A stretch of 64,000 bases of DNA from NCBI RefSeq assembly GCF_026967805.1, contig NZ_JAPVBG010000002.1, positions 766,190 through 830,189 of the forward strand. The letters are read 5' to 3'. Of the stretch, positions 8,963-57,019 are shown in pieces; the stretch's first letter is position 1; each line of letters begins with the position of its first letter. The notes below the pieces were generated by a model, which saw only the letters and a list, made by a program, of their open reading frames with translations, searched no databases and had not been told where the DNA came from. This DNA comes from Blastococcus sp. VKM Ac-2987 (GTDB taxonomy: Bacteria > Actinomycetota > Actinomycetes > Mycobacteriales > Geodermatophilaceae). The translations under genes were made by a program, and so were the position numbers.

Positions 8963-9043
8963 GTGATCGAGCTTGCGAGATCACCGATGAGCGCAGCACC
9001 GTCGGTCACGACGCCGACGAGCGCCAGCGAGGAGAAGCAGTGA
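8963..9043 (+). CDS. 26-residue ORF linking secE to nusG (PTSASEE family)
   Basis: GTG at 8963 is preceded by AAGGAAGAG at 6 bases and the frame ends at TGA 9041-9043, which overlaps the nusG GTG (9040) in the form GTGA. The peptide starts [10 protein letters not shown] and ends [10 protein letters not shown] related ORF (starts [10 protein letters not shown], ends PTSASEEET) sits in the same position before nnr at 55473. The GAGGAG near its end is the ribosome-binding site of nusG. Function as a translational coupler is my inference; it might instead be a non-coding repeat that happens to be open. Confidence 0.5.
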
Positions 9044-9927
9044 CCGACCCCCGCGAGCCCTTCGAGACCGACAGTGCGGTCGAAGGCACCGACCTGGACG
9101 ACGCCCGATTCGACGAGCGCGGCACCGCCGACGTCGAGACCGGCGCCGGCGAGACCGGTTCCGCCGAGGGTTCCAGCGACACCGCCGACCTCGACACCGA
9201 CACCGCCGTCTCCGACGTGGCGCCGGAGATCGAGACCGGGAACCCGGACACCCTCGTCAGCGACCCGCTGGCCGCGGCGGCCCCCGACTCCGACGTCGAG
9301 CCGGAGGAGGACGAGGACCCCGCCGAGGCGATGAAGAAGGCGCTGCGGATCGCTCCGGGCGACTGGTACGTCGTGCACTCCTACGCGGGCTACGAGAACA
9401 AGGTGAAGACCAACCTCGAGGCGCGCATCCAGTCGCTGGACGTCGAGGACTACATCTACCAGATCGAGGTGCCCACCGAGGAGGTCACCGAGATCAAGAA
9501 CGGCAAGCGCTCGCAGGTCAACCGCAAGGTGCTGCCGGGCTACCTGCTGGTCCGCATGGAGCTCAACGACGAGTCGTGGGGAGCGGTCCGCAACACCCCC
9601 GGTGTCACCGGCTTCGTGGGGGCCACCTCGAAGCCCTCGCCGCTGACCCTCGACGAGGTCGTCAAGATCCTGGTGCCCGCCACCGCGCCGCAGGCGCCCC
9701 GGGCCACCGAGGCCGCCGCGTCGACCGGCGGTGCCCCGGCCGCCCCGGCCGCCGTCGTCGACTTCGAGGTGGGCGAGTCGATCACCGTCATGGACGGTCC
9801 GTTCGCGACGCTGCCCGCCACCATCAACGAGATCAACGCCGAGCAGCAGAAGCTGCAGGTGCTGGTGTCCATCTTCGGCCGCGAGACCCCCGTCGAGCTG
9901 TCGTTCAGCCAGGTCCAGAAGATCTGA
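9040..9927 (+). CDS. nusG: Transcription termination/antitermination factor NusG
   Basis: 295 residues. An acidic, Thr/Asp-rich tail of about 100 residues precedes the NGN domain ([20 protein letters not shown]), which binds the RNA polymerase clamp. The linker [20 protein letters not shown] leads to a C-terminal KOW domain ([19 protein letters not shown]), which contacts S10 or Rho. Length and acidic tail are typical of actinobacterial NusG. The GTG start is set by GAGGAG 5-6 bases upstream, provided by the preceding small ORF, and the NGN domain would be complete in any case. Followed by rplK. Confidence 0.95.
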
Positions 9928-55089: not shown

Positions 55090-55476
55090 GTGATCATCGG
55101 AGTCGGGATCGACGTCGTGCCGGTGGAGCGTTTCGCCGAGTCGCTCACCCGGACACCGGGGTTGCGGGACCGGCTGTTCACCGCGGACGAGCAGCGGACC
55201 CCGTCGGGGTCTCCGCGCACCGGTGAGTCGCTGGCCGCCCGATTCGCCGCCAAGGAGGCGCTCGCCAAGGCCCTCGGCGCCCCCGGCGACCTGCGCTGGC
55301 ACGACGCCGAGGTGACCGTCGGCGAGCACGGCCGCCCGCACCTCGTGGTCCGCGGCTCGGTGGCCGGCCGGGCGGCGCAGCTCGGCGTCACCGCCTGGCA
55401 CGTCTCGCTCAGCCACGACGGCGGCATCGCGTCGGCGGTCGTGGTCGCCGAGGGGCTGGGCCGGGAGACCACATGA
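55090..55476 (+). CDS. acpS: Holo-[acyl-carrier-protein] synthase
   Basis: 128 residues; [19 protein letters not shown] with metal ligand Asp8, [13 protein letters not shown] with Glu56, and [20 protein letters not shown]. Transfers phosphopantetheine from CoA to acyl carrier proteins. GTG at 55090 is fixed by Asp8 spacing. The stop overlaps a small ORF by ATGA. Confidence 0.95.
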
Positions 55477-55556
55477 CCGAGCGTGCGAGGTCATGCAGGA
55501 GCAGAGCATGGCGCCCGATCGCGGATCCGACGAGCGCCAGCGAGGAGGAGACGTGA
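55473..55556 (+). CDS. 27-residue ORF linking acpS to nnr (PTSASEE family)
   Basis: ATG at 55473 overlaps the acpS stop (ATGA) and the TGA at 55554-55556 overlaps the nnr GTG at 55553 (GTGA). The peptide starts [18 protein letters not shown] and ends PTSASEEET. Compared with the ORF before nusG it shares Met, Glu3, Ala-Arg-Ser and the whole PTSASEE block; both end in DNA reading ACGAGCGCCAGCGAGGAG, which is the ribosome-binding site of the next gene. A coupler role is inferred. Confidence 0.5.
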
Positions 55557-57019
55557 TCGGGCTGCACACCGCCGCGGAGGTCCGGGCGGCCGAGGCCCCG
55601 CTGCTGGCGTCCCTGCCCGACGGTGCGCTCATGCAGCGCGCGGCCGCCGGGCTGGCCACCGTCTGCCTGCGGCTGCTGGGCCGCTCCTACGGTGCCCGCG
55701 TCGCCCTGCTGGTCGGATCGGGCGACAACGGTGGCGACGCGCTGTTCGCCGGCGCCCGGCTGGCCGCGCGGGGTGCCCGGGTCACCGCCGTGCTGCTCGA
55801 TCCCGGGCGGGCGCACGCCGCCGGCCTGTCCGCGCTGCGCGCCGCCGGCGGGCGCAGCCTGGCGCCCGGGGCCGCCGGGCCCGTGCTCGACCGTGCCGAC
55901 CTCGTCCTCGACGGGATCGTCGGCATCGGCGGGTCCGGCGGGCTGCGGCCGGCGGCCGCGGCACTGGTCGAGCGGGCGGCCGCGGGACCCGCGCTGATGG
56001 TCGCCGTCGACGTGCCGAGCGGGGTCGACGCCGACACCGGCGCCGTCGACGGCGCGGCGTTCCCGGCCACGCACACCGTGACCTTCGGTGCGGTCAAGCC
56101 GGGGCTGGTCGTGGGCGCGGGACGTGGCTGCGCGGGCGAGGTGCATCTGGTCGACATCGGGCTCGGCCCGCACCTCCCGCGGCCCTCCGCGTTCCGGCTC
56201 ACCGACGCCGACGCGGCGGTGCGGCTGCCGCTCCCGGACGCCGACGACGACAAGTACTCGCAGGGCGTGGTCGGCGTGGTCGCCGGCTCGGCCACCTACC
56301 CGGGCGCCGGTGTGCTCTGCACCGGAGCCGCCCTGCGCACCCGGCCCGGCCTCGTCCGCTACGCCGGCACCGCCGCCGACGGCGTGCGGGCCGCCTGGCC
56401 GGAGGCGCTCGTGACCGCCGGCCGTCCGGCCGACGCCGGCCGGGTGCAGGCCTGGGTGGTCGGTCCCGGCACGGGCACCGACGACGACGCGCGCAGCGTC
56501 CTGGCCGAGGTGCTCGGCACCGACCTGCCGGTGCTGGTGGACGCCGACGCGCTGACGATGCTCGCCCGCGAGCCGGAGCTGGTGCGGGGCCGGGCGGCGC
56601 CCACCGTGCTGACGCCGCACGACCGGGAGTTCGCCCGCTTCGGCACCGAGCCCGGCGACGACCGGATCGGGGCCACGCGCCGGCTGGCGGCCGACCTGGG
56701 CGCCGTCGTCCTGCTCAAGGGCGAGGCCACCGTGGTCGCCGACCCGGACGGCACCGCCTTCGTCAACGCCACCGGCACCCCGTGGCTGGCCACGGCCGGC
56801 ACCGGCGACGTGCTGTCCGGCATCACCGGTGCGCTGCTGGCCGGCGGCCTGCCGGTCGCGGAGGCGGCCGCCGTCGCCGCCCACGTGCACGGGCGGGCCG
56901 GCCAGCTCGCCGCCGCGCAGGGCCCGCTGATCGCCGGCGACCTCGTGCGGCACCTGCCCGCGGCCGTCGACCGGGTGCGCGGTGCCCGGTCCGGCGGCCT
57001 GCCAGACTCGGGGCCGTGA
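55553..57019 (+). CDS. nnr: Bifunctional NAD(P)H-hydrate epimerase / ADP-dependent dehydratase
   Basis: 488 residues. The N-terminal YjeF_N epimerase domain (about 1-210) has VGSGDNGGDALFAGARLAAR and VDVPSGVDADTGAVDG; the C-terminal dehydratase (about 225-485) has VVAGSATYPGAGVLCTGAAL, LTPHDREFARF and the nucleotide-binding ATAGTGDVLSGITGALLAGG. It repairs hydrated NADH and NADPH. GTG at 55553 directly after GAGGAGGAGAC; 20 extra in-frame residues upstream belong to the repeat. The stop overlaps alr by GTGA. Confidence 0.94.
   Translation: MIGLHTAAEVRAAEAPLLASLPDGALMQRAAAGLATVCLRLLGRSYGARVALLVGSGDNGGDALFAGARLAARGARVTAVLLDPGRAHAAGLSALRAAGGRSLAPGAAGPVLDRADLVLDGIVGIGGSGGLRPAAAALVERAAAGPALMVAVDVPSGVDADTGAVDGAAFPATHTVTFGAVKPGLVVGAGRGCAGEVHLVDIGLGPHLPRPSAFRLTDADAAVRLPLPDADDDKYSQGVVGVVAGSATYPGAGVLCTGAALRTRPGLVRYAGTAADGVRAAWPEALVTAGRPADAGRVQAWVVGPGTGTDDDARSVLAEVLGTDLPVLVDADALTMLAREPELVRGRAAPTVLTPHDREFARFGTEPGDDRIGATRRLAADLGAVVLLKGEATVVADPDGTAFVNATGTPWLATAGTGDVLSGITGALLAGGLPVAEAAAVAAHVHGRAGQLAAAQGPLIAGDLVRHLPAAVDRVRGARSGGLPDSGP

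Follow-up and report, generated by a model that had tools for sequence, protein, structure and literature searches.

REP/RAYT and IS200/IS605-type elements are short and palindromic, with a tetranucleotide at the end. The MIRUs, for which Supply et al. 1997 is said to be the source of the description, are used in strain typing; to our knowledge, how they spread and what their function is are still open. According to the part of PMC12548453 that was available, the MIRUs of mycobacteria are apparently mobile, are inserted at start codons and contain an internal ORF which is coupled to the gene that follows at a spacing of -4; those of the senX3-regX3 spacer are said, in the available part of PMC4213456, to be confined to M. 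leprae and the tuberculosis complex.

The element described here, carried by Blastococcus and soil bacteria related to it, is a new and widespread relative in kind of the MIRU with a sequence of its own. The original prediction, which was made from one stretch of DNA, knew of no described family of this kind; this does not stand, as the mycobacterial MIRUs are the kind already described (PMC12548453, in the part available). The element is probably a short, non-autonomous mobile element that is targeted to NTGA and survives as a ribosome relay.

Two copies at acpS-nnr and before nusG

The window is the whole stretch of 64,000 nucleotides of Blastococcus sp. VKM Ac-2987 that was analysed. The small ORFs at 55473-55556 and 8963-9043 are two copies of a dispersed element which usually measures 81 nt from NTGA to NTGA. 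The features of both copies and their neighbours are as follows.

55090 to 55476, + strand: acpS, the gene upstream of the first copy; PF01648 (ACPS)
55473 to 55556, + strand: copy of the element at the acpS-nnr junction; 84 nt, with ATGA as head and GTGA as tail; profile E 1.8e-21
55473 to 55494, + strand: 5' hairpin of the acpS-nnr copy, supported by covariation; ATGACC (55473-55478) with GGTCAT (55489-55494) and a tandem G-A step within; contains the ORF start codon
55519 to 55556, + strand: 3' hairpin of the acpS-nnr copy, less strongly supported; outer stem TCGCG (55519-55523) with CGTGA (55552-55556), weaker than the 5' stem; tandem-GA core 55528-55547
55542 to 55547, + strand: Shine-Dalgarno-like GAGGAG for nnr, 5 nt before the nnr GTG; alignment columns 67-72
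55553 to 57019, + strand: nnr, the gene downstream of the first copy; PF03853 (YjeF_N) and PF01256 (Carb_kinase)
8963 to 9043, + strand: element copy before nusG; 81 nt, 26-aa ORF from GTG 8963 to TGA 9043; profile E 1.3e-24
8963 to 8984, + strand: 5' hairpin of the nusG copy, GTGATC with GATCAC; absent from this copy's MFE (folded one base off, 8964-9044)
9029 to 9034, + strand: Shine-Dalgarno-like GAGGAG for nusG, provided by the element
9040 to 9927, + strand: nusG, the gene downstream of the second copy; PF02357 (NusG)

As predicted, the first ORF bridges acpS and nnr by start and stop overlaps. Its ATG at 55473 lies within the acpS stop (ATGA, 55473-55476), its 27 aa take up the entire length of the copy and it ends in a TGA (55554-55556) that shares bases with the GTGA of the nnr start (55553-55556), with the expected Shine-Dalgarno, GAGGAG, placed 5 nt before the GTG. 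The overlaps held only in part for the copy before nusG: the TGA of the 26-aa ORF does overlap the nusG GTG at 9040, but there is none with the upstream gene, secE (an identity backed by Pfam), as the copy begins 45 nt beyond the end of secE, at precisely the position of the nusG start codon. Within the window ACGAGCGCCAGCGAGGAG has exactly 2 occurrences, and since two or more matches were reached in 5/100 shuffles when up to 3 mismatches were allowed, the two window matches alone are only mildly surprising.

Copies in the genome and their spread

A 16-base core was found in 9 exact copies in the 4.6-Mb genome, compared to 0 for the reversed control, and a profile built from 14 copies detected 18 copies in the same genome at E < 1e-8, both window copies belonging to this family. 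The window ORFs are therefore copies of a dispersed element, as the similarity between them had suggested.

All 23 genomes searched in the genus, inferred to be Blastococcus, matched at E <= 0.001, with 4-62 copies per genome among the matches listed; up to 150 candidates were scored per genome and the counts are those of the best matches listed. Copies here are profile matches, and the set that was read consisted of 96 chosen regions and automatic loci, where 153 aligned rows gave 151 unique genus copies, weak ones to E 0.001 taken in. A size of 81 nt was shared by 115 of the 151, and forms of 69, 78 and 84 nt likewise end on NTGA.

Matches at E <= 0.001 were present in 229 of 397 genomes sampled from the order, 74 of the 229 being in Geodermatophilaceae; in a listing that omits 148 non-matching genomes, one genome of the window's own family stood without a match, and many of the matches outside the family were single and weak. 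A 20-base hairpin pattern was found in at least 114 stretches of named genomes, and the element profile gave 84 matches at E <= 0.01 on the 80 of these that were listed. Strong profile matches, among the stretches listed, were to Geodermatophilus, Blastococcus, Modestobacter, Pseudonocardia, Prauserella, Actinophytocola, Kutzneria and Solihabitans, that is, to genera of the Geodermatophilaceae and Pseudonocardiaceae, and the other listed taxa mostly have just the short pattern in common. Sixteen more distant genomes, selected for having matches, contain variants including a 69-nt form, and the head frame ends on NTGA in 25 of the 29 loci that were read (of 30; L423 was left out). An origin as plasmid or phage cargo was rejected, as one 81-nt query gave no match in the plasmid and phage collections.

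Several variants were observed. Three loci of one other family (L409, L410 and L414) carry a 69-nt form without the GCGCCAGCGAG core, which is still in frame and is in tandem in places, and four loci of other families (L418, L419, L429 and L433) carry VSERSERTI-type variants with a different head (GTGAGCGAGC..AGCGAGCGAAC). Related to the latter are the GCGAAC genus copies (5/114), where a G-A step takes the place of two ordinary pairs.

Gene junctions and unoccupied sites

The 151 genus copies fall into 139 units, each a single copy or an array; 10 are tandem arrays, and an NTGA is present at the head in 127 and at the tail in 126. ORFs of at least 100 codons end at the head in 102/139 and start at the tail in 122/139, compared to 220/811 and 400/811 for control NTGA sites on the same strand. 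Both flanking ORFs are present for 88/139, compared to 93/811 control NTGA sites in the same DNA and on the same strand (Fisher p 1.6e-37). For 37/139, no upstream ORF of at least 100 codons ends in the head, which counts against the relay reading.

At acpS-nnr the element is carried by 3/23 genomes, and in 19/23 it is absent and nnr starts at a plain NTGA; the one other genome, G022, has a shortened remnant with the frame and overlaps kept. At secE-nusG, where 22 of the 23 genomes were read (G011 was left out), 4 have the element, 1 has an odd spacer and 17 are without it. The copy number at this site is 1 in G000, G020 and G021 and 2 in G005, and the element is inserted exactly between an older Shine-Dalgarno-like sequence and the nusG start. 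In a tree of these genomes (with the nnr part missing for G011 and G021) the carriers fall within one 11-genome group, yet stand beside sisters without the element; several of the forks are unsettled. The patchy occupancy is likely to be the result of repeated gain or clean loss, and may reflect loss by recombination instead of movement. The enrichment at junctions and the sites unoccupied in relatives agree with the prediction of amplified, apparently mobile DNA.

A dedicated enzyme would presumably move the element. Mobility by a Y1 transposase was considered and rejected, as PF01797 was found in 0/23 genus genomes by a search which was positive in 5/14 named genomes used as control; PF01797 was the only transposase sought, and none was linked to the element. 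Despite the likeness to REP/RAYT and IS200/IS605-type elements, which are similarly short and palindromic with an end tetranucleotide, the element differs from them in having hosts without PF01797, in sitting on start codons and in having an ORF. A MITE has inverted repeats at its termini in common with a full-length transposon; the ends of the element are direct NTGA.

A neutral peptide in a maintained frame

The peptide had been predicted to be dispensable, and its amino acids are indeed not conserved: pN/pS is 0.93 between orthologous copies, compared to 0.33 in the following genes (first 100 codons), and differences at the three codon positions number 126/146/117 in the element ORF and 245/217/626 in the following genes. 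For the codon and stem tests, only copies of the 81-nt class or orthologues of equal length were taken, and list neighbours were compared instead of all pairs; pairs in the downstream-gene control had to be more than 70% identical and to have long ORFs, and the orthologous groups, obtained from blastn of both flanks, may merge a few different insertions.

One open frame runs from head to tail in 111/151 genus copies, and the frame is intact in 54 of the 74 copies scored from named taxa (10 of the 84 rows were too short to be included). Few stops occur in forward frame 1 (2/110), but there are also few in frame 3 (8/110), which counts against the relay reading. The frame-shift test drew on 251 copies from all sets, of which 172 were scored and 79 were set aside (21 with no head NTGA, 49 with no recognised core and 9 with no tail NTGA and ORF). 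With the core in its usual frame, 151/154 copies are in frame with the NTGA. Where the core frame is shifted (18 copies), a second change near the end returns 9 to the NTGA and 9 remain out of frame; this proportion is not significant when compared to 1/3 (p 0.11). The tail length has, on the other hand, changed by a non-multiple of 3 in 11/18 shifted copies, compared to 3/154 unshifted (Fisher p 1.5e-10; 1.7e-9 with repeats removed). The peptide is thus a by-product while the frame is maintained. The original prediction had named a ratio near 1, and broken frames at random positions, as evidence against it; the first is what was found, but the frame is kept and the copies are enriched at junctions.

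Copies of 79 and 80 nt were also seen, at L324, L282, L047 and L082 (one site) and alike at L084. As the frame of the 79-nt copies continues into the downstream gene, it may be that the element extends the N-terminus of that gene's product.

A proposed ribosome relay

A relay is favoured over a useful peptide because pN/pS is near 1, the frame is kept and junctions are enriched, and judged from sequence it appears to be the best-supported function. The element would enter DNA exactly at an NTGA (a start codon plus A), in most cases one where the stop of one gene overlaps the start of another, and would leave an NTGA at both its ends. Its frame opens on the upstream NTGA and closes on the downstream one, and it provides a Shine-Dalgarno 5 nt ahead of the start of the downstream gene. 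A ribosome that has finished the upstream gene would then translate a throw-away peptide of 26-27 codons before being handed to the next gene; with a frame from NTGA to NTGA and a supplied Shine-Dalgarno, the ribosome of the upstream gene would thus be delivered to the next. Two tandem G-A hairpins would hold the peptide start codon, and the Shine-Dalgarno and start of the next gene, respectively, and translation would open them in turn. The proposed handing over of a ribosome at an NTGA overlap is as in translationally coupled upstream ORFs, but the element is dispersed at many unrelated genes, at sites which are unoccupied in relatives.

The alternative which survives best, although we regard it as unlikely, is that the element is purely selfish DNA, with hairpins that serve transposition or replication as single-stranded DNA, an ORF that is a side effect of landing on NTGA and a frame kept mainly by a multiple-of-three ancestral length. 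The uniform length of most copies (81 nt in 115/151) and the neutral amino acids would be expected from this, and a structure at the DNA level is possible, as G-U (12) and A-C (8) in the 5' stem give no clear favour for RNA. It accounts poorly for the two-step frame restoration (11/18 compared to 3/154), for the stem compensations at orthologous sites given below and for the 69-, 78- and 84-nt forms that still end on NTGA. From the frame restoration and the orthologous compensations, selection or a templated process after insertion is needed.

Covariation of two hairpins

The 5' stem is formed by the head NTGANC and its partner GNTCAN; pair 5-18 is GC in 51, CG in 42, TA in 11 and AT in 4 of 114 copies, and inside the stem a tandem G-A step (110/114) is followed by two G-C pairs. 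This hairpin is based on covariation over 14 own-genome copies, 104 distinct alignment rows and 64 sites. The percentage paired, the double-change cells and the covariation score of the stem were, in every set, above those of each of the 500 shuffles and of every slid version; the weaker statistics, counts of pairs and pair types, were reached by up to 197/500 shuffles (14-copy set) and 50/500 (named set). Between orthologous copies 8 double compensations were found in the 5' stem, compared to 0.91 expected.

The 3' part fits C-GA-C-GA-GC-loop-GC-GA-G-GA-G, with the G-A steps in 98 and 105 of 114 copies, and its 3' strand is the Shine-Dalgarno. The outer stem, which includes the start codon of the next gene, is weaker, with 70.5% of cells paired. 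In the 81-nt class with an ATGA tail, 7/7 copies (5 sites) have the matching T at column 47; in six further copies with T at this column, the ATG lies three bases further on. Double compensations between orthologous copies number 5 in the 3' core (46-48/77-79), compared to 0.97 expected, and 6 over the whole 45-50 3' stem, compared to 3.71 by chance and with 30 one-sided breaks. Covariation supports both hairpins, each with tandem G-A steps, the 3' hairpin being less strongly supported than the 5'. It fits RNA or single-stranded DNA as the structured form alike; in the proposed relay the hairpins would act in RNA.

Unusually stable folding was rejected, as the energies of the six copies folded were ordinary (z -0.37 to -1.50). 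The 5' stem is visible in 3/6 minimum-energy folds, the acpS-nnr copy of the window not being among them, as its 5' hairpin region is paired differently when folded alone. The structural case rests on covariation for these two reasons. A known Rfam RNA family was also rejected, as window positions 55300-55750 gave no match at E <= 1, and the whole window and 6 loci gave only 4 tRNAs at the gathering score.

Compensatory changes in stems can also be made by DNA template switching between the arms, or quasi-palindrome correction, with no selection on structure. This would explain why pair 5-18 occurs in all four Watson-Crick types and why the arms are often perfectly matched, but copying of an arm would tend to make the G-A steps perfect palindromes, and these non-Watson-Crick steps are kept in 98-110/114 copies, with one replaced by standard pairs in 7/114. 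We consider this explanation improbable for the element, compared to the ribosome relay.

Regulatory sites and small proteins

The copies could instead be promoters or regulatory sites of the downstream gene, as stated for the MIRUs of the M. tuberculosis senX3-regX3 spacer, which can drive regX3 expression (PMC4213456, in the part available). This is very improbable here, as the placement follows start codons and frame, not distance from start codons, and the nusG copy separates the start codon from the native Shine-Dalgarno-like sequence. An ordinary gene for a functional small protein is hardly credible and was rejected, for although a peptide pattern is recognisable across copies, pN/pS is 0.93, entire second halves are read in another frame and 6 element peptides matched no Pfam or NCBIfam family. 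In the annotation of actinobacteria, some genes of 26-27 aa that are spurious, and some starts that are misplaced, may be due to the element.

Comparison with MIRUs

The query motif, which we take to be the MIRU core, was detected (with up to 1 mismatch) in 32/60 genomes from a different genus within the order, inferred to be Mycobacterium. These MIRU-type loci frequently form arrays in which the period is about 50-55 bp and the ends are NTGA, and 27 of them fit a hairpin that contains three tandem G-A steps (25, 25 and 27 of 27). The outer stem has 11 double-change cells, compared to 2.6 in shuffles, none of which was as high; it is 95.1% paired with covariation 0.148, and although a control slid by +3 had 12 double-change cells, it was only 58.6% paired with covariation 0.044. 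The alignment holds 27 of 30 loci (L400 and L402, not motif-oriented, and L394, with a 3-nt gap, were left out), and the search motif itself fixes columns 20-40.

By analogy the element appears to work like a MIRU. Both are short dispersed repeats with NTGA at start codons and an ORF at -4 spacing (PMC12548453, in the part available), and both have tandem arrays, a Shine-Dalgarno-like end and apparent mobility (the same source and the MIRU-type loci read here). In the element, NTGA lies at both ends on neighbouring start/stop codons (head 127/139, tail 126/139), a small internal ORF spans the unit (111/151 intact) and tandem arrays are of variable copy number (10/139; 1 or 2 copies at the nusG site). 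Sequence homology to MIRU was not found: the best match of the element profile at MIRU sites in 30 MIRU-type loci was 11.5 bits (E 0.065), matches of a MIRU profile overlapping the element in 30 Blastococcus loci were at E 0.4 or worse, and only a short GAGC..GCGA..GAGGAG pattern is in common. The two nevertheless seem, from their sequences, to share a fold plan, with the differences that the Blastococcus element has an extra 5' hairpin containing its own start codon and that its 3' outer stem takes in the start codon of the next gene. The tandem G-A hairpin was found here and is in no MIRU definition that we met; no description of the element, or of this hairpin in MIRU, was found in the open-access literature, and the term MIRU is absent from the main text, in the part available, of the ribosome-profiling paper PMC9094748.

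Tentatively, Actinobacteria may harbour a broad class of selfish DNA, with MIRU as one branch, made harmless by acting as a ribosome relay, where a tandem-GA RNA hairpin hides the next RBS and is opened only by ribosomes reading the dispensable frame of the element. If this is true, insertion at a start codon would keep operon coupling, as the hairpin would open only to ribosomes in the frame of the element. The element would be a second family, with no homology found to MIRU and in non-mycobacterial hosts, in which the hairpin is conserved, the copies of one genome can number dozens and the unoccupied sites are clean. Its copies are natural replicates for testing whether start-codon insertion is tolerated through a translation relay, and it offers coupling parts for operon design.

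The presence of a MIRU-type motif in 32/60 probable Mycobacterium genomes contrasts with the confinement of the senX3-regX3 spacer MIRUs stated in the available part of PMC4213456. One Blastococcus locus (L033 610-2999; G000:C1, near 1778697-1778931) has 3 head-to-tail copies between a histidine kinase gene (PF06580) and a LytTR response regulator gene. Its period of 77 bp is that of the 77-bp MIRU form (PMC4213456, in the part available), and the array recalls the MIRUs between senX3 and regX3, although the two-component system is a different one.
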